A stretch of DNA of 36,534 nucleotides from a virus: positions 1-36,534 of IMG/VR virus record IMGVR_UViG_3300021062_000012, one strand, 5' to 3'. The notes beneath the pieces were generated by a model that was not told the origin of the DNA, searched no databases, and saw only the letters and a program-made list of their open reading frames with translations. This document shows, one piece after another, positions 1,762-9,821 of this stretch. The first letter of the stretch is position 1. Every line of letters starts with the position of its first letter. The translations under genes and the position numbers were made by a program.

Positions 1762-2931
1762 TTATGAATCGGCCTTTGCGGATTTGCGATTCTGGGATTT
1801 TTGTCCCGGACTCCGCCGTAACGCCGCCGCAGCTTCCAGGGACTGCCGCCGCTGATCGGTGTAGGTGTGGGTATACCGCCCCGAGCTGCGGATATCCGCG
1901 TGGTCTAGGGCGTCCTGAACGGCTCTCTGGTCTCCCGTGGCGGCGTAGATCCTGGTGGCCGTGGTGTGACGGAGGTCATGGGGGCGGAAGTCCTCTATCT
2001 TCGCGTGCTCAAGGATGGCCTTCCAGGCTTCGCGCCAGCCGTCCTGGGTGAAGGGGTAGCGGCGCCCCTTTCGGCGGATTGCACCATTCTTGCCCGTGAA
2101 ATTGGCTTGGCAGATGTACGTCCACAGCCGGGTAGGGTGGTGCATCCAGTTCCGCTCGATCAGCACCATCATTTCATCGGTGAGCGCGATAACGACTTCC
2201 CGCCCACCCTTGGCGATCACCCGAGCGGTCCGGGCGCGCCGGTCTATTTTGGCCTTCTCCATGAACAGGACTTCGGAGAGGCGTTTGCCGGCAAGCAGCT
2301 TAAACTCCCATACGTCGTGAAAATCCGGCCGCAATTCGTCGATGGCCGCGAACAAGGCGTCATCCTCATCAAGGCTGAGTGCGCGGACTCGCTTCTTCTC
2401 GGGCAGTTTATGGTTGCCCCACTCCGGGATTTCCTTCGGAAGCCGCGCAACCTTGCGGTTGATCTTGAAAATTTCCGCCAACGTCTCAACGTCGCGGTTG
2501 ACGGTGGAATTGCTGACGAGGTTGTTGCGTCGCCTCGCCTTCTCGGTGCGGCGCTGGGCCACATAGCCGGCGCACACTTCGTCATCGATTTCGTCGAGAA
2601 ACTTATGCTTGCCGATGATCCGCTCAAGGTGAGCGATGAAGCCCCAAATGGAATCGGAGTTGGCCTCGTGTTGGGCCTTTAGGGTCCAATATCGGGCGGC
2701 GGCGTCGTGGAGGGTCAGGCGTGGCCGGTCGGTTACCGAGCGCGTGGAGGCAGCTCTAAGGACCTTTTCCGCCCGCTCGGCCTCCCGCTTCGGCCTGTCG
2801 ATGCGGATTTCGGGGCGGCCGTCTTGGCCGTCGAACGATCCTGAAAATCGAGCGCGATTACATTGGAAGTCGTATTGCCAGAATGGGCTTTTCGCTTCCC
2901 CGGCTTGGTCGCGGGCGATGTAGACGGACAT
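1762..2931 (-). CDS. int: Tyrosine-recombinase integrase
   Basis: 389 residues from an ATG with a strong GGGAGGAGC site; upstream in-frame codons would only read through the xis gene. A SAM-like core-binding domain occupies about residues 70-165 and the catalytic domain about 185-370. The full active set is visible: Arg217 (GKRLSEVL), Lys241 (AKGGR), His318-x-x-Arg321 (HDLRHTTATR), His344 (DHADI) and the nucleophile Tyr353 (GRYTH). It integrates and, with excisionase, excises the phage at the adjacent attP. It is the last gene of the leftward operon and its 5' end lies about 200 bp inside xis. Since that operon's promoter overlaps a repressor operator, int should be silent in the lysogen and switched on at induction. 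Confidence 0.96.
   Translation of the reverse strand: MSVYIARDQAGEAKSPFWQYDFQCNRARFSGSFDGQDGRPEIRIDRPKREAERAEKVLRAASTRSVTDRPRLTLHDAAARYWTLKAQHEANSDSIWGFIAHLERIIGKHKFLDEIDDEVCAGYVAQRRTEKARRRNNLVSNSTVNRDVETLAEIFKINRKVARLPKEIPEWGNHKLPEKKRVRALSLDEDDALFAAIDELRPDFHDVWEFKLLAGKRLSEVLFMEKAKIDRRARTARVIAKGGREVVIALTDEMMVLIERNWMHHPTRLWTYICQANFTGKNGAIRRKGRRYPFTQDGWREAWKAILEHAKIEDFRPHDLRHTTATRIYAATGDQRAVQDALDHADIRSSGRYTHTYTDQRRQSLEAAAALRRSPGQKSQNRKSAKADS
1789..1814 (+). repeat. Candidate integrase arm site, right copy
   Basis: This is the partner of 1593-1616: ATTCTGGGA at the 5' end and GGACTCC at the 3' end, with a two-base-longer middle. It lies within the codons for the last residues of integrase, on the other side of the attP core. 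Confidence 0.4.
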
Positions 2932-3140
2932 ACTAGGTGCTCCTCCCGATACCAGCGGCCGAAGGCAACGAGGTCTTCCCACCAGATGCGGCGTTTGGTC
3001 CGCGGGCCGCTGGCCGTGTACTTCAGGTGGCCGCTGGCCATCCATCCTTCGACGGCGTCCAGGCCCATGGCAAGCGGTCCGCACGCCTCTTCGGGCGTGT
3101 AGTACAGCTTATCCACAGGAATCTGGACGGGGCCGGTCAT
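2733..3140 (-). CDS. xis: Excisionase-like winged-helix protein
   Basis: 135 residues, with the start overlapping the preceding stop (ATGA). Residues about 10-67 look like a short helix-turn-helix/winged-helix excisionase module of the MerR-like type: YYTPEEAC, then a recognition helix around LDAVEGWMASGHL, then a wing rich in Arg/Lys (GPRTKRRIWWEDL). The remaining 65 residues are basic and low in predicted structure and are encoded in the region that overlaps int by 199 bp in another frame, so this tail may be a by-product of the overlap. Expected role: bends attL/attR DNA and directs integrase to excision. An exact DnaA-box sequence at 3109-3117 falls in its codons and is probably chance. 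Confidence 0.7.
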   Translation of the reverse strand: MTGPVQIPVDKLYYTPEEACGPLAMGLDAVEGWMASGHLKYTASGPRTKRRIWWEDLVAFGRWYREEHLVCPSTSPATKPGKRKAHSGNTTSNVIALDFQDRSTAKTAAPKSASTGRSGRPSGRKRSLELPPRAR

Positions 3141-3508
3141 CGGGCGTAGCGGTCACGCATCCACAAGCCGAAGTCGTGGTCGAAGGGCACCAGGGCGCCG
3201 TAGACCGGCCGGGCGCCGCTGGCGTGAAATTCCTCCCGGTCCATGGCCTGTGAAAACGGCGCGTTGTCGGCGGTCAACAGGTAGCCCTTGGCCGCGTGAC
3301 TAAGGCGGCGAACGTCGCCGCGGTGCTCGCCGTCGTAGGCAAGGCTGTAGAGGGTTTCACCGCGATAGCCGCTCGGGCCCAGGAAAATAAGGCTGTTGGG
3401 CTGGATCGTGGGCCACATGTAATTGGTCGTCACCACGGCGGTGGTGATGTCCTCGCCGCTGAAGCGTTGCCGCCAGAACGGCGCGAGCGATCCTGAAAGC
3501 GGAGGCAT
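3137..3508 (-). CDS. S24/LexA-fold protein lacking both catalytic residues
   Basis: 123 residues without any DNA-binding domain. Residues 22-112 follow the S24 peptidase pattern in order: NYMWPTI (28-35) where active proteins have GDSMxPT; a Gly-rich strand; YSLAYDG (54-60); VRRL (66-69) where active proteins have VKRL; LLTADN (77-82) matching the usual S-x-DN; and VYGALVPF (102-109) matching the usual VIGRVxx strand. The serine nucleophile is Tyr30 and the general-base lysine is Arg67, so self-cleavage should be impossible. The phage repressor at 6896-7597 keeps both. Lying directly before xis and int and coupled on both sides by overlapping start/stop codons, it is probably regulatory. It might bind the repressor C-terminal domain, but that is a hypothesis. 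Confidence 0.7.
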   Translation of the reverse strand: MPPLSGSLAPFWRQRFSGEDITTAVVTTNYMWPTIQPNSLIFLGPSGYRGETLYSLAYDGEHRGDVRRLSHAAKGYLLTADNAPFSQAMDREEFHASGARPVYGALVPFDHDFGLWMRDRYAR

Positions 3509-4551
3509 TAGGCGGCCCTCGCCATGGGCGATTGCGGCACGCGATCCGGTCGGTTCTCTTGCTCAAGATACCGCACGACTTCCCGCTTACGGTTTGCCCT
3601 GTAATCGACGCGCGCCATGAGCCGCTGATAGGTTTCATGGTCCAGGCTGTCAGGCAGGGACCAACCCAACGCCTTCTCGCCGTTGTGATCGATGGCGACG
3701 CACACCTTGAACCCCGCCGCGTCCATGTCGGCGACCCACTGCGCGGGATCAAACGGAAGGCGCGCGATGGCCTCGCGCTCACGCTGCGCAGCGTACTCGG
3801 GGCTGGTGTCGTAGTGGTGGCGGCGTGCGCGCATCTCCGCCCGCAGGGCCTTAAGGGTGCCGTCCTTGCGGGCCTTCTCGGTCAGGTACCGCATGATCGC
3901 GCGGCGATGTAGGCGCGACTCCGATTGTTCCAGGGCCAACATCGACCTACGGCGCCGGGTGGCGTCGTCATCAATGGCGATGTGCAGAGAAAGGTGGCGA
4001 CCGTTGGTGCTGGGATATATCTCCGGCCGATAGCCGTTGCGGCGCATCGTGTTATACCACTTCGCCGGGTCAAAGTTCTTGAGGTCCGGGAGCCAGCCGT
4101 ACCGCTTCGCCTGCGCGACTAGTTCTTTCCTGACTTTGATGTGGTTGTCACCGCGACGGCTCTCGGCAAGGAGATCATTGATCCGACGGAGAGCCCTAAG
4201 CGACACGTTGTGGTCCGTGTAGGCAACCCAATTCCATTTTCCGCCTGGGCTTGGGTACAACTCGAACCGCTCACCCTCCTTGCGCATGGCGGCAATCCAC
4301 TTACGAGCGTTGAAGCAGTGGACGGAGACAAGCAAGTAGTCGATGACGGCGTCGCGCATCTCGCTGCCTGCGGCGTTGAGTTCCGGCCGCGGATCGGGAG
4401 TTTCGCTGTTACGATACTGGGGCTCTCCGATGTACAGGCCAGAGGTCATCTGACCGTCAATCTTGGTCCGGTGGGCGCGTAGGTCGTAGCCATACCGCTC
4501 CATCTTCCGAACGAGCCTTTCGGCGGCGTGGAACACTTTCATGGAATACAT
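3508..4551 (-). CDS. Unknown protein made of four tandem repeats
   Basis: 347 residues from an ATG preceded by AAGGGGAGA; upstream in-frame residues belong to another gene's shadow. Four related modules of about 65-75 residues can be seen at about 7-74, 80-130, 160-226 and 267-332. The shared pattern is F-[DN]-[PA]-x-[KQ]-W-x-x-x-M-x-x-x-G-[YF] followed by a strand such as EIYPS or ELYPS, a Gly turn, a second strand, and in three copies a closing helix ending in [IV]-x-[RD]-YL. Repeats 2, 3 and 4 are clearest (FNARKWIAAM, FDPAKWYNTM, FDPAQWVADM). No catalytic motif is evident. The stop overlaps the next start (TAATG). The function is not recognised. A repeat architecture inside an int/xis operon suggests a nucleic-acid- or protein-binding role. 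Confidence 0.8.
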   Translation of the reverse strand: MYSMKVFHAAERLVRKMERYGYDLRAHRTKIDGQMTSGLYIGEPQYRNSETPDPRPELNAAGSEMRDAVIDYLLVSVHCFNARKWIAAMRKEGERFELYPSPGGKWNWVAYTDHNVSLRALRRINDLLAESRRGDNHIKVRKELVAQAKRYGWLPDLKNFDPAKWYNTMRRNGYRPEIYPSTNGRHLSLHIAIDDDATRRRRSMLALEQSESRLHRRAIMRYLTEKARKDGTLKALRAEMRARRHHYDTSPEYAAQREREAIARLPFDPAQWVADMDAAGFKVCVAIDHNGEKALGWSLPDSLDHETYQRLMARVDYRANRKREVVRYLEQENRPDRVPQSPMARAA

Positions 4552-4564
4552 GGTGGTCTCCCCT

Positions 4565-5272
4565 TCAGGCTGCTTTTGGAATAGAGGCGGGCTCGGTCGC
4601 CGCAGCGATGGGCGCGGGCCCGTGAAAGAAGCTGGCGAGGTTTGCTGCGATCCGCGCGTAGTTCTCATCGTTGACGATGCACAACGGATGGTCGCCGTTC
4701 TGCTCAATCGGCAGAAGTTCGGCGAGCACTGCGGCGCCGGTCCATGACTTTGGCTTGCGGCGGGCGATGGCGCATTCGTTGCGGTACTTTGCTTCCAGCG
4801 CTGCGGTCATGCGCTTTTCGCGGCGCGCCTCGCCGGCAGCCATCACGGCGGCATGGTGCGCATTAGCATCGTTGGGGTGTCGCGCGTCGGCAGCGGCATA
4901 GATGCGGTCGCCTTCCGAGGACAACTCATCCAATTGGCGCGCAATCTGGCGCCGCTCGTCCATCAGCGCGACTAGTGGGTCGTCGCCGCAAAAGATGCGG
5001 CCCGCTTCCAGCATGATGCTGTTGAGAAGCGTCCCTTCCTCGTAAGTCAGCGGCACACTGTCGCCGTGGTCTTCACGAACGTCGTTGAAGATGTTGAACA
5101 GTGTGCCGAGTTTCAGGGCAAATTCGCTCATGGTCTTGGCGCGGTACTTGGCGACGGCAGCAATGGCGGCGCTCTCGCGGGGGATAAAGCGCGGGCCGTG
5201 TTTCTTCAGGTACAGTTGTGCGCGCTCAAGTTCGGCGAGCAACTCTGGCAGCGACTTCGGTTTCGATTTCAT
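4565..5272 (-). CDS. Hypothetical helical protein
   Basis: 235 residues, predicted mainly helical and charged, with a likely coiled-coil stretch at about 1-25 and another around 100-165 (MDERRQIARQLDELSSEGDR and the alanine/histidine-rich part after it). No signal peptide or membrane segment. The start overlaps the upstream stop by ATGA and the stop is 13 bases before the next start, so it belongs to the leftward early operon. No family recognised. Its C-terminal end is rich in Ala/Pro and probably flexible. Confidence 0.75.
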   Translation of the reverse strand: MKSKPKSLPELLAELERAQLYLKKHGPRFIPRESAAIAAVAKYRAKTMSEFALKLGTLFNIFNDVREDHGDSVPLTYEEGTLLNSIMLEAGRIFCGDDPLVALMDERRQIARQLDELSSEGDRIYAAADARHPNDANAHHAAVMAAGEARREKRMTAALEAKYRNECAIARRKPKSWTGAAVLAELLPIEQNGDHPLCIVNDENYARIAANLASFFHGPAPIAAATEPASIPKAA

Positions 5273-5670
5273 GTGGGCGTGTCCCCTGCGATGACAGTTG
5301 AAAACGCCTGAACCTTGATGGCGTGGCGGACGGCCTGCAGAAGGCCGCGCCGCTCCTTGACCTGCACGCGCCAGCCCATGGCATCGACGGTGGCGCCGGA
5401 GCGTTCGGCCTGAGCGAGTGCGCCGCGAGCAAAATCAATGTCACGCAGGACCCAACGCGCGATCCGCTTGAGTTCGCGATGCTCCATCCTGGCGAGGTTC
5501 TGCACGGGCGTGGCGGTGCGCATCGCGGCACGGGCGAGCGCCAAGGCTGCGGCGCCACCGATGGAGACGAGCCGGGATGGCCGATGCGAAAGAGGATGCC
5601 CCGCCGCGGGGGGTTCTTTCGACGCTTGGGGAGCGTCGGCGGCGGGGCCGGGGGGCTGGATCTTGTTCAT
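5269..5670 (-). CDS. Hypothetical protein
   Basis: 133 residues from the ATG that overlaps the upstream stop (TAATG arrangement) and ending in ATGA overlap with the next gene. Residues 1-35 are proline-rich and disordered. Residues about 36-130 are helical, with an alanine-rich helix (GGAAALALARAAMRTA) and a basic second half. It is not recognised. The tight coupling on both sides supports it being expressed as part of the leftward operon. Confidence 0.65.
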   Translation of the reverse strand: MNKIQPPGPAADAPQASKEPPAAGHPLSHRPSRLVSIGGAAALALARAAMRTATPVQNLARMEHRELKRIARWVLRDIDFARGALAQAERSGATVDAMGWRVQVKERRGLLQAVRHAIKVQAFSTVIAGDTPT

Positions 5671-6092
5671 TACGCGGCCTCGCTGGTGGGCTGTTTGGTC
5701 GCCAGCGCCGCGCGAAGTAGACGCAGGGTGTTGCGGGTCTGTAGGGCGATGTAGGCGACGGTCCGGGCACCATTGCGCGCCTGCGGGATGTGACGAGCGA
5801 CCGCCGGGTTGTCGGCGTCTCGCTCGAGGTCGCGAAGGCGCCGGACCGCGTTCCGCAGCTGCGCGCGCTTCATGGCCAGCCACTTCCGCTCAAGACGAAT
5901 GGAGGTTTCCAGGTGGGCGGCGTCGTAGTGTCCGTATGGGACGGCCGGCGGCGGTGACCGCAACTCCGCCAGCTTGTCCTGGACCTGTTGCGGGCCAAAG
6001 GCGCCGTCATAGCTGGCCTGGATGATGTCGTACTCAGCGCCGGTGACGGCGAAGCCGTGGATTTGAAGGGTGCGGGCGTATTGGGGGGTCAC
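5670..6092 (-). CDS. First gene of the leftward operon, unknown function
   Basis: 140 residues with a GTG start supported by an AGGAGG site five bases before it. The N-terminal half has a compact mixed sequence (IHGFAVTGAEYDIIQASYDG), and residues about 60-130 form basic helices (KWLAMKRAQLRNAVRRLRDL). No family recognised. It follows the operator-controlled promoter at 6117-6145 and is therefore the earliest leftward product. By position it resembles the first gene of a lambda-type PL operon, but nothing in the sequence points to an antiterminator motif. Confidence 0.7.
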   Translation of the reverse strand: MTPQYARTLQIHGFAVTGAEYDIIQASYDGAFGPQQVQDKLAELRSPPPAVPYGHYDAAHLETSIRLERKWLAMKRAQLRNAVRRLRDLERDADNPAVARHIPQARNGARTVAYIALQTRNTLRLLRAALATKQPTSEAA

Positions 6093-6116: not shown

Positions 6117-6145
6117 AGAAAATCACGTATCGTGATTACGGTCAA
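6117..6145 (-). promoter_or_regulatory. Leftward early promoter with operator in its spacer
   Basis: Read on the minus strand: TTGACC (from 6145), a spacer of exactly 17 bases, then TTTTCT (to 6117). The -35 matches five of six bases and the -10 three of six. Operator O1 (6121-6137) covers the spacer, so bound repressor would block polymerase. It should drive the seven genes from 6092 down to int. Confidence 0.6.
6121..6137. promoter_or_regulatory. Repressor operator O1
   Basis: AATCACG-TAT-CGTGATT is a perfect 7-bp inverted repeat with a three-base centre. It has the same form as the sites at 6154, 7632 and 7653. It occupies the spacer of the leftward promoter. Confidence 0.8.
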
Positions 6146-6153
6146 TCATAAAA

Positions 6154-6170
6154 AATCATGTTTCGTGATA
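6154..6170. promoter_or_regulatory. Repressor operator O2
   Basis: AATCATG-TTT-CGTGATA is a one-to-two-mismatch version of O1. Its centre is 33 bp from that of O1, about three helical turns, which would allow cooperative binding. It lies upstream of the nuclease gene, so the nuclease may also be under repressor control. Confidence 0.75.
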
Positions 6171-6193
6171 ATCGGCGACGCTATAGTGGCGGC

Positions 6194-6658
6194 GTGAAGT
6201 TTCTGCTTGTGGCATCTGTCCTGTTGGCGGGCACGCCCGAAAGGGTGATTGACGCCGATACCCTCCAGGTCGGCGGGGTCCGTGTCCGCCTATGGGGCAT
6301 ACAAGCCCCTGAGCGGCGCGAATACTGCATCAGGAAGGGGCAAGCTGGGTTCCGGTGCGATGACGTGGGCCGGGAGCGGTTGCGCGCCCTGGTGGCCTCT
6401 GGCGTTGAATGCGAGGCCAAGGGCGGGGGAGACCCCTACGGCCGGACCATTGCCCTATGCCGCACCGCGGACGGGCGGGATGTCGGCCGCGAGATGGTCG
6501 CGAGCGGGTATGCCATGGCCTACCGGCGCTTCAGCCGGGACTATGTCGCCGATGAAGCGGCGGCGCGGTCGGCAGGCCAAGGGTGGTGGAGCTGTTCGAT
6601 TACGGCGCCGGAGCGGTGGGAGCGGGCGAAGCGGTGCGGTATCAGAGGAAGCCGCTGA
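6194..6658 (+). CDS. Secreted thermonuclease-family (SNase-like) nuclease
   Basis: 154 residues from GTG. An ATG at 6158 is in frame but sits inside operator O2 and would spoil the signal peptide, so I prefer GTG. Residues 1-13 form a short Sec-type signal (KFLLVASVLLAG). The staphylococcal-nuclease fold follows: VIDADT (18-23), VRLWGIQAPE with Arg32 and Glu40, and PYGRTIAL with the second catalytic arginine. The second calcium ligand, usually Asp in GIDAPE, is Gln here. Four or more cysteines suggest disulfides and an extracytoplasmic location. Family knowledge: these enzymes cut DNA and RNA. TATAGT at 6182-6187 could be a -10 giving a nearly leaderless message. It lies between immunity genes, transcribed rightward, suggesting operator-linked control. 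Possible role: degrading incoming or external DNA. Confidence 0.8.
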   Translation: MKFLLVASVLLAGTPERVIDADTLQVGGVRVRLWGIQAPERREYCIRKGQAGFRCDDVGRERLRALVASGVECEAKGGGDPYGRTIALCRTADGRDVGREMVASGYAMAYRRFSRDYVADEAAARSAGQGWWSCSITAPERWERAKRCGIRGSR

Positions 6659-6899
6659 GCACATAGGCGATCGACGCCACCGCCGCCGCTCCGGTGATGC
6701 CGTAGGCCAAAGCCCGAACCTCTGCTGTTAAGGCCGCCAGGCCGTCACGCCGGGAGGCTTCCGCAATCTCAACCTCCTTGCGGATGCCCTGCAGCGACCG
6801 GTGGATTTCGCGCAGCCAATGGATATGGCTATTGGTGTCGTCCTCGGGCGAAGGGCCACCGTATTTTTTGCGGTGCTCCAAGACGGCGTCATCAATCAT
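6642..6899 (-). CDS. Small protein with C-terminal membrane anchor, co-transcribed with repressor
   Basis: 85 residues. The start is chosen at the ATG that overlaps the repressor stop (ATGA) and follows GGGAGGCAGG. The N-terminal 60 residues are polar and helical (RSLQGIRKEVEIAEASRRD), and the last about 20 are hydrophobic (YGITGAAAVASIAYVLSGFL), predicting a tail anchor. Because it is made with the repressor it should be expressed in the lysogen. By position and topology it resembles superinfection-exclusion or lysogenic-conversion proteins, but no family is recognised. Its 3' end overlaps that of the convergent nuclease gene by 17 bp. Confidence 0.7.
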   Translation of the reverse strand: MIDDAVLEHRKKYGGPSPEDDTNSHIHWLREIHRSLQGIRKEVEIAEASRRDGLAALTAEVRALAYGITGAAAVASIAYVLSGFL

Positions 6900-7597
6900 A
6901 CCTGCCTCCCTATCCAAATGACCCTACCGATGACGTGGACATCGTCCGGGCTGAGATCCTCGTAATTCCGATGCTGGGGGTTGTCGGATGAGATGCTAAG
7001 CCGGTGCGGCTTCACCGGAGCCACGGTCATTCTCTTTACGACCAACTCGTCATCGAAGATCCGCAGCGCGTAAATGCCGTCCTTCGGCGCGGTCTTGGTG
7101 CGGTCTATAAGCGCTTGGTCGCGGTGGTGCAGCGTGGGGTACATCGAATCCCCGTCAACGATGAGCAGCGCGAGTTGGTCCGCCGGGGCCTGGGTTACGC
7201 CACGTAGCCATTCCATCCGAAATGGTTGGTAAAACTGCGGCCTCTCCTGCGTTGCCACGAGCGCACCAGAGCCGGCGGAAAGCCGAAGGTCATAGGCGGC
7301 GATCTGCGCCAGCTCTTCGGCCCAAAAAGCACCGTCTGCCACCAAGCGGTGTGCGTGTCCGCTGCCTTGGGGCGGAGCAAGCGCCTTCATGGTGCGCTGG
7401 TCTATAAACCACAGCACCGGTTTGTTGGTGAATTGTGAGATTGCAACGAGCTTTTCCAGCGGCGGCTCGTTATTGCCCCGCTCCCATTGCGCCACGGTCG
7501 ATTGGCCGACATTCAACAGCTTAGCCAACGCGGCCTGCGTCATGCCGGCGGCCTTCCTTGCTTCCGAGATTCGCGTTGCGAGCTTCCCGATCCCCAT
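6896..7597 (-). CDS. cI: CI-type phage repressor with S24 self-cleavage domain
   Basis: 233 residues from ATG; an in-frame TTG at 7609 is possible, and neither has a clear ribosome site, so the message may be nearly leaderless. An XRE-type helix-turn-helix occupies residues about 7-62 (AGMTQAALAKLLNVGQSTVA). The S24 peptidase domain spans about 105-233, with probable cleavage at Ala108-Gly109 (SAGSG), the nucleophile Ser151 (GDSMYPT) and the base Lys188 (VVKRM), then SSDN and VIGRV strands. Family knowledge: it represses lytic genes and self-cleaves with activated RecA. It should bind the four AATCACG-N3-CGTGATT sites, two next to its own gene and two at the leftward promoter. Confidence 0.93.
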   Translation of the reverse strand: MGIGKLATRISEARKAAGMTQAALAKLLNVGQSTVAQWERGNNEPPLEKLVAISQFTNKPVLWFIDQRTMKALAPPQGSGHAHRLVADGAFWAEELAQIAAYDLRLSAGSGALVATQERPQFYQPFRMEWLRGVTQAPADQLALLIVDGDSMYPTLHHRDQALIDRTKTAPKDGIYALRIFDDELVVKRMTVAPVKPHRLSISSDNPQHRNYEDLSPDDVHVIGRVIWIGRQV

Positions 7598-7631
7598 CCC
7601 TACAGCCAATTACGGTATGTGATTTTCTGCA

Positions 7632-7648
7632 AATGATGTTTCGTGATT
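7632..7648. promoter_or_regulatory. Repressor operator O3
   Basis: AATGATG-TTT-CGTGATT is the most divergent copy: the right half is perfect and the left half has two mismatches. It is centred 21 bp (two helical turns) from O4 and is closest to the repressor gene, so it may serve repressor autoregulation. Confidence 0.7.
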
Positions 7649-7675
7649 GCGTAATCACGCATCGTGATTTATCTT
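7647..7675 (+). promoter_or_regulatory. Rightward early promoter (cro promoter) with operator spacer
   Basis: TTGCGT (7647-7652), a 17-base spacer that is exactly operator O4, and TATCTT (7670-7675). The same layout is found at the leftward promoter. Transcription would start at about 7682, leaving almost no leader before the cro ATG at 7684. Confidence 0.6.
7653..7669. promoter_or_regulatory. Repressor operator O4
   Basis: AATCACG-CAT-CGTGATT is a perfect 7-bp inverted repeat, fully inside the spacer of the rightward promoter. Confidence 0.8.
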
Positions 7676-7683
7676 GCCGGGCT

Positions 7684-7956
7684 ATGACGACCCAAGCGGA
7701 ACGGATTATCAGCAAATTCGAAACGCAGGACGCGTTAGCGGACGCCGTCGGGGTGCACCAGTCCGCGGTGGCCATGTGGAAGAAGCGCGGCTTTATCCCG
7801 GCACGACAGCAACAAGCCGTTCTGATGGCTGCGGCCAATCTCGGAGTCCCTCTGAAGCCCGAGGATTTCTTTAGCCCAGCGACGCCGGATGACTCTGTCG
7901 CCAAGCCTGCCGACCCCACAGAGACATCCGTCGCAACAGCAAAGCGGGTGGCCTGA
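7684..7956 (+). CDS. Cro-like helix-turn-helix regulator
   Basis: 90 residues from ATG. Residues about 8-50 are a YdaS/Cro-type helix-turn-helix: FETQDALADAVGVHQSAVAM followed by the WKKRGFIPAR turn that is typical of these small regulators. The C-terminal 35 residues are disordered and rich in Thr/Pro/Asp. It is divergent from the repressor across operators O3 and O4, the position of lambda cro, and should turn down repressor synthesis after induction. No ribosome site precedes the ATG; together with the promoter position this points to a leaderless message. Confidence 0.85.
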   Translation: MTTQAERIISKFETQDALADAVGVHQSAVAMWKKRGFIPARQQQAVLMAAANLGVPLKPEDFFSPATPDDSVAKPADPTETSVATAKRVA

Positions 7957-8745: not shown

Positions 8746-8871
8746 ATGCTTAACACCGGCGACGTATTCGCCCTTTCAGGGCCACGCCTCGTCAGAACCA
8801 GCAGCACCACCGTTGCGCGCCAACGCGTGCCATTGGTGTGCATCCTCCGTGCGCACGGGGAAATCGCATGA
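8746..8871 (+). CDS. Short peptide coupled to the ParB-like gene
   Basis: 41 residues ending in an ATGA overlap with the next start. GGGGGCGGC precedes the ATG, where a small stem (TGCCGC 8723-8728 / GCGGCA 8736-8741) also lies. The peptide is mixed hydrophobic/basic and unrecognised. The exact stop/start overlap makes a coupled leader gene plausible. Confidence 0.45.
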   Translation: MLNTGDVFALSGPRLVRTSSTTVARQRVPLVCILRAHGEIA

Positions 8872-9821
8872 GGGTGGCGCTTAAACCACCGGATAGACCT
8901 TGGCCGTTGCGCACACCATCACCGACGACAGCCGCGCGAATCCAAGCAGGGGGCGCTGCTGACCGTGGGCCGATCCCTCCGGCGACGACTGAGTCCCCAA
9001 ACTCAGCACCGTCTCCGGAGGGGTCCGCTTCCGAACCGAAGGCGCCGACGGCGGCTGAGTTGGGTCCGCGACCTAACATGTCGTGGATCAACAAGAACGA
9101 AATGGTCGTGGACCGCAGCTATCAACGCACGCTGCAAAGTCGCCGCAGCAAAAGCCTGATTGATAGTCTGACCGCCAATTTCCGGTGGATGCATTGCTCT
9201 CCGTTGGTCGGCTGCGAGCGTGCCGACGGTAAAATAGTCATCATCGACGGACAGCATCGGCTCGCGGCGGCCAAGCGCATTCCCGCCATCTCCCTTTTGC
9301 CCTGCTACGTCGTTGACGAATTGACCGTGGCGCAACAGGCCCACGCTTTCGTTGCGCACAATTCCGCGCGGGTCACCGTCACGCCCCTTCAGCTATTCCA
9401 CGCCAAAGCCGTCGCCGGCGATGCGGAAGCGGTGGCGATCCTCGATGCCTGCGCAGCTGCTGGCGTGAAGGTGCTGCGTTCGCAAGGCGGCGCCGAAAAG
9501 GCGGATGAGACGGGCTCGTTGGGAATCCTCACGAGCATCTACCGCAAGGACGGTGCGCAGAAGCTGACCGAGGTTTTGCGCATCTTGCGCGCGGCCTATC
9601 CGAAGAAAGACGGCCAGCTCACATCATTCATGATCGGCGCGGTGCGGGACATGCTCGCGCGCAATCACAGTGGCGTAACGATCATCGTCGCTCTGCGGGG
9701 GACAGACGACAAGACGTTGCGCCTGGAAGCGCAGTTCGCACGCGCCTCAGCCGAAGAGGTGCGTTTGCGCGACGCGTACACCGAGGCATTGGCCAAGTTG
9801 GTGGAGAAAACCCCCGTATGA
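8868..9821 (+). CDS. ParB/Srx-fold nuclease-like protein
   Basis: 317 residues from the ATG that overlaps the preceding small gene and follows ACGGGGAAA. Residues 1-65 are Pro/Ala-rich and disordered. From about 70 the ParB/sulfiredoxin-like fold begins: VDRSYQR (a partner of the ParB N-terminal motif), then VIIDGQHRLAAA, the signature phosphate-binding motif of this superfamily. The C-terminal 170 residues are helical. There is no obvious ParB helix-turn-helix, so it is not a classic partition protein. Stand-alone members next to phage replication genes are known, with unclear roles. ATGA overlap with the next gene makes it the first large gene of the replication operon. Confidence 0.75.
   Translation: MRVALKPPDRPWPLRTPSPTTAARIQAGGAADRGPIPPATTESPNSAPSPEGSASEPKAPTAAELGPRPNMSWINKNEMVVDRSYQRTLQSRRSKSLIDSLTANFRWMHCSPLVGCERADGKIVIIDGQHRLAAAKRIPAISLLPCYVVDELTVAQQAHAFVAHNSARVTVTPLQLFHAKAVAGDAEAVAILDACAAAGVKVLRSQGGAEKADETGSLGILTSIYRKDGAQKLTEVLRILRAAYPKKDGQLTSFMIGAVRDMLARNHSGVTIIVALRGTDDKTLRLEAQFARASAEEVRLRDAYTEALAKLVEKTPV

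Follow-up and report, generated by a model that had tools for sequence, protein, structure and literature searches.

A stand-alone S24-type domain without the catalytic residues in the xis-int operon of a temperate phage

The S24-like gene and its product

The IMG/VR virus record IMGVR_UViG_3300021062_000012 (36.5 kb) represents a temperate phage and was analyzed over its whole length of 36,534 nt, called the window here. At positions 3137 to 3508 on the minus strand, it carries a gene for a stand-alone protein of 123 aa that resembles the S24-type C-terminal domain of LexA and CI, with Tyr30 in place of the nucleophile serine and Arg67 in place of the lysine; gene and protein are referred to as S24-like. 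The gene lies in a leftward operon that ends in xis and int. Its open reading frame (ORF) is intact and begins with ATG, its start overlaps the stop of a 347-aa upstream gene (TAATG), and its end overlaps the start of xis (ATGA). The GC content by codon position is 0.62/0.51/0.82, and the third position in neighboring genes is at 0.74 to 0.82. As third-position GC matches that of the neighbors, the ORF is an intact, normally coding, real gene.

The relationship to S24 domains was detected by profile methods. The profile phrog_6201, which has 121 positions and represents CI-like repressors, matched residues 18 to 87 of the protein with an E value of 1.2e-4; in the six frames of the window, the same profile returned only two matches, the S24-like ORF (3e-6) and the phage's own repressor (2e-17). 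A custom profile built from 31 repressor C-terminal domains gave 13.5 bits (2,000 shuffles, ≤5.3), and profile-profile alignment with repressor domains using hhalign gave a score of 30.3 (100 shuffles, ≤17.2). The protein was reached neither by Pfam, including S24 (PF00717), nor by NCBIfam, and no defence-system model matched it.

Single-sequence AlphaFold was uninformative, with a predicted local distance difference test (pLDDT) value of 34.5. When an alignment with 24 repressor domains was used, pLDDT was 86 to 91 over approximately residues 21 to 40 and 51 to 100 and 77 at residues 41 to 50. The top 30 matches in a structure search with this model were all LexA, UmuD, or CI domains, with Z up to 9.4; LexA, UmuD' (1ay9, Z 9.2; 1umu, Z 9.1), and lambda CI had Z of 8 to 9.4 and were followed by signal peptidases (5 to 6), and matches of any other fold than LexA/signal peptidase reached Z 3.6 at most. 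Because the repressor rows guide the model, it indicates that the sequence fits the S24 fold and is no independent proof of it. By profile and predicted fold, the protein is an S24 domain of the LexA/UmuD/lambda-CI type, in agreement with the first-pass annotation, which had read an S24 fold from the DNA sequence alone.

As had been claimed, Tyr30 and Arg67 replace the catalytic residues: each of the 24 aligned repressor domains has Ser and Lys, respectively, in these columns. The Ser-Lys catalytic dyad is missing, and by this mark the protein falls outside the S24 peptidases. The Gly two positions before the nucleophile Ser, invariant in the 24 domains, is Thr at position 28. The protein keeps M31, P33, R68, D81, N82, and G104, along with most of the hydrophobic positions, and retains the MxPT, RR, and DN motifs together with the hydrophobic core. 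The N-terminus reads MPPLSGSLAPFWRQ where repressors have AGxG...F..xWLR; this start lies at about the cleavage position of a repressor, so the protein is equivalent to the C-terminal fragment that cleavage sets free. The C-terminus reads GALVPFDHDFGLWMRDRYAR where repressors have GRVxWxGxx, and model confidence is low there; the last strand is GALVPFDHDF as against GRVxW in repressors and is followed by a tail predicted as helix.

The lack of a DNA-binding domain, noted in the first-pass annotation, was borne out: no helix-turn-helix (HTH) family in Pfam, PHROG, or NCBIfam matched, and the domain starts near residue 10 to 20 of only 123. Judged from its residues, the protein is unable to cut itself or other proteins and lacks a DNA-binding domain. 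With the C-terminal domain of CI-like repressors (phrog_6201; PF00717), it shares the predicted fold, the domain length, and the motif order MxPT...VxR...DN...G, but it has no HTH and no linker, carries Tyr and Arg for Ser and Lys, and ends in an altered C-terminal strand and an extra tail.

The repressor and control of the leftward operon

The phage encodes a CI-like repressor with an HTH and an S24 domain (6896 to 7609, minus strand; PF01381, PF00717, phrog_4). As previously described, its Ser and Lys are intact (Ser151/Lys188 when numbered from an inner ATG, Ser155/Lys192 from the TTG at 7609), and the Ala-Gly site lies within LSAGSG. A Cro-like HTH protein (7684 to 7956, plus strand; phrog_35, E 3e-8) is encoded divergently from it.

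Five copies of a 17-bp palindrome, AATCACGNATCGTGATT and variants, are present in the window: the gap from repressor to cro holds three, and the other two lie just ahead of the leftward operon. The former are a copy overlapping the repressor start (7608 to 7624), a copy at 7632 to 7648, and AATCACGCATCGTGATT at 7653 to 7669. The latter are OL1, AATCACGTATCGTGATT (6121 to 6137), and OL2, AATCATGTTTCGTGATA (6154 to 6170), placed between a staphylococcal-nuclease-like (SNase-like) gene on the plus strand and the GTG start of the leftward operon at 6092. When a matrix derived from the five palindromes was applied, the sites scored 22.4 to 28.4, the next best position in the window 13.6, and the best positions of 20 shuffled windows 9.5 to 18.8; as the matrix was built from the sites themselves, these values show only the absence of further sites. 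From the position between repressor and cro, we infer that the five palindromes bind the phage repressor. The arrangement, with three palindromes at repressor/cro and two at the head of the leftward operon, is the same as that of lambda OR and OL. Because the operator-like palindromes are found at the repressor/cro gap and the operon head only, they support repressor control of the leftward operon with the S24-like gene, xis, and int, which the first-pass annotation had assumed.

The operon opens with three genes of unassigned function on the minus strand, at 5670 to 6092 (GTG start at 6092), 5269 to 5670 (start taken at the ATG at 5670), and 4565 to 5272. The 347-aa gene follows at 3508 to 4551 (minus strand), and its stop overlaps the S24-like start; its function is likewise unassigned, with no family match in Pfam, PHROG, NCBIfam, or the defence-system models. 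Short motifs in it (ARKWIAAM, FDPAKWYNTM, and FDPAQWVADM) are possibly an internal repeat, although a quick test was not above shuffles.

Downstream of the S24-like gene lie xis (2733 to 3140, minus strand), for an excisionase-like HTH protein, and the tyrosine integrase gene int (1762 to 2931, minus strand; PF00589, E 9e-23; phrog_1), the start of which was taken as MSVYIARD. The adjacency to both that had been reported thus holds. The match of xis to TIGR01764 is weak (E 2e-4; 21.7 bits, under the cut-off of 28.8), and the assignment is supported by the same overlapping gene ahead of related integrases. The overlap of xis with int, approximately 200 bp, lies in another frame and is kept by relatives in genomes and viral contigs; a recurring CPSTS...TTS..V.DF motif is present in the overlap-coded Xis tail of relatives.

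Other genes of the immunity region and its surroundings were also noted. The SNase-like gene (6158 to 6658, plus strand) encodes a secreted-looking micrococcal-nuclease-like protein, as read by eye, inside the immunity region; the OL pair lies between this gene and the divergent leftward operon, and both may be repressor-controlled. A small gene (6642 to 6899, minus strand) lies directly downstream of the repressor gene, overlaps it, and encodes a C-terminal hydrophobic segment; its position is of the rex/superinfection type, and expression in the lysogen is likely. A ParB-N/sulfiredoxin-like protein with a DGQHRL motif, read by eye, is encoded close to where the rightward early operon begins (8838 to 9821, plus strand).

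Relatives and distribution

An alphaproteobacterium is the probable host, as the closest relatives of the terminase, approximately 60 to 66% identical, are mostly in genomes of Bosea, Kaistia, Afipia, and Aureimonas. No homologue of the S24-like protein was found using tblastn against phages and plasmids, by scanning viral and genome contigs for peptide patterns, in about 780 alphaproteobacterial genomes, or in 20 related virus records. A DNA-pattern scan for NYMWPT gave one match, which was unrelated. Weak matches (L123, L124, L105, and L178) were dismissed as chance: they fell in frames that were antisense-type or not S24, or in a GlmS-like protein, and for L178 only the query range and the long frame were used. 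Of the short S24 ORFs in Hyphomicrobiales genomes, the two that were checked were UmuD beside umuC.

Integrases of this family are common and have the same xis overlapping their start, while what precedes xis differs from case to case, with HNH nuclease genes among others. No S24-only ORF was found nearby at 111 loci with related integrases, where minus-strand genome loci were judged only by both-strand profile searches. On this ground, the S24-like gene is an accessory singleton of the phage rather than a constant component of the excision module.

Possible roles of the S24-like protein

The first-pass annotation had observed a dead stand-alone S24 domain, which is confirmed here, and had interpreted it as a mimic of the repressor's C-terminal domain acting as an antirepressor or excision switch, which is partly supported. 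Our tentative reading is that a single S24 domain works by protein contact, most likely by binding an S24-type repressor and weakening its dimer or its operator binding. The protein would be made from the repressor-controlled early-left operon, with xis and int, after repression lifts on infection or induction. It would then bind an S24-type repressor, which may be the phage's own, that of a co-resident prophage, or host LexA, and the bound repressor would be weakened as a dimer or on its operators. In this way, the protein would reinforce the choice of lysis or excision but would not initiate it. Interference by contact fits because the fold is a dimerizing, RecA-docking one, the protein is non-catalytic and without a DNA-binding domain, and it would be made upon derepression. 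Expression time, binding partner, and effect are all inferred.

Several findings weigh against this reading. The protein is 21% identical to the phage's own repressor and 15 to 25% identical to unrelated ones, and plain BLASTP against the former misses the relationship altogether (E 12). The altered C-terminal strand holds Pro and charged residues and runs into the low-confidence tail; in LexA and CI, this strand carries dimer contacts. Given the equal distance to all repressors and the changed dimer strand, a tailored mimic of the phage's own repressor, as had been proposed for its dimerization surface, is disfavored. No homologue with the same Tyr and Arg was found that would show the dead state to be conserved. 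The operon should also be shut in the lysogen, so the protein could not start induction and may instead reinforce it or act early in infection. A mimic or antirepressor role is a tentative hypothesis on a singleton gene.

The gene may instead be a relic or a neutral passenger that derives from a repressor C-terminal domain; after the loss of the head and of the catalytic residues, it would have drifted to an unrelated role or be left without a present one. This is a doubtful though serious alternative, as the gene is a singleton without detectable relatives, is missing from all 111 related-integrase neighborhoods, and has lost the invariant Gly28 along with both catalytic residues. Against it, the frame is intact, GC at the third position is 0.82, and coupling to the genes on either side is tight; the S24 core pattern has survived although identity is very low, a sign of long purifying selection more than of recent decay. 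Solved RecA-filament complexes of LexA, UmuD, and CI domains (8gmt, 8gms, 8trg, 8gmu, and 8s7g) match the model, as would be expected of a RecA decoy, in which a non-cleavable LexA/CI domain on the filament slows cleavage of the repressor or host LexA and favors lysogeny or damps SOS. We consider such a decoy improbable: a protein made from a repressor-controlled early operon would arrive late to protect the repressor, and no SOS-type GTTC-N7-GTTC box (host LexA type) is present near the leftward operon.

A role as a UmuD'-like (HumD-like) accessory, with a host polymerase or another protein as its partner, is still less probable. Processed UmuD' requires no further catalysis, the S24-like protein has its length, and the two UmuD' structures given above are among the best matches; host UmuC could serve as the partner. 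However, sequence profiles prefer CI-like repressors, the UmuD-like phrog_811 was returned for the repressor but not for the S24-like protein at E up to 1, and no umuC was noticed among the ORFs of the window read by eye, while the true UmuD genes that were met adjoin umuC. UmuD' and HumD of P1 are likewise stand-alone S24 domains, the latter in a mobile element; the S24-like protein differs from them in its repressor-like profile, the loss of the catalytic residues, and the lack of a noticed UmuC partner in the window. An integral part of the excision module that modulates Xis or Int directly is very unlikely, in spite of the position directly upstream of xis with overlapping codons, since at related xis/int pairs this place is empty or taken by other genes, in no case by an S24-only gene; the excision role that had been suggested found no backing in these neighborhoods.

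For repressor interference by contact, the nearest functional parallels are known from other phages. Binding by the Gifsy antirepressors GfoA and GftA or by Tum of phage 186 detaches LexA-like phage repressors from DNA, and nothing in that report suggests that the Gifsy proteins are S24-like (PMC3121763). Repressor inactivation by binding is shown for these small phage proteins and only proposed for the S24-like protein, whose gene, unlike theirs, is apparently controlled by the phage's own operators. Dimers of the SaPI repressor Stl are separated by helper-phage proteins (PMC10806181). Within the wider fold, the signal-peptidase homologue SipA of Streptococcus pyogenes (4n31) matches the model with Z 6.0, but is a membrane-anchored pilus factor of S26 rather than S24. 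SipA is likewise not known to carry the catalytic pair.

To our knowledge, most antirepressors show no sequence relationship to the repressors they target. It is conceivable, if rather unlikely, that a separate, non-cleavable, early-expressed S24 domain poisons S24 repressors (its own, those of rival prophages, or host LexA) via mixed dimers and so represents an antirepressor descended from the fold of its target. The S24-like protein is so far one gene in one environmental phage. If the reading is true, dominant-negative control of a lysogeny switch would here take a simple form, in which an intact S24 repressor governs the gene for a free-standing dead S24 domain, and such a protein may also engage in cross-talk with host LexA or with other prophages.
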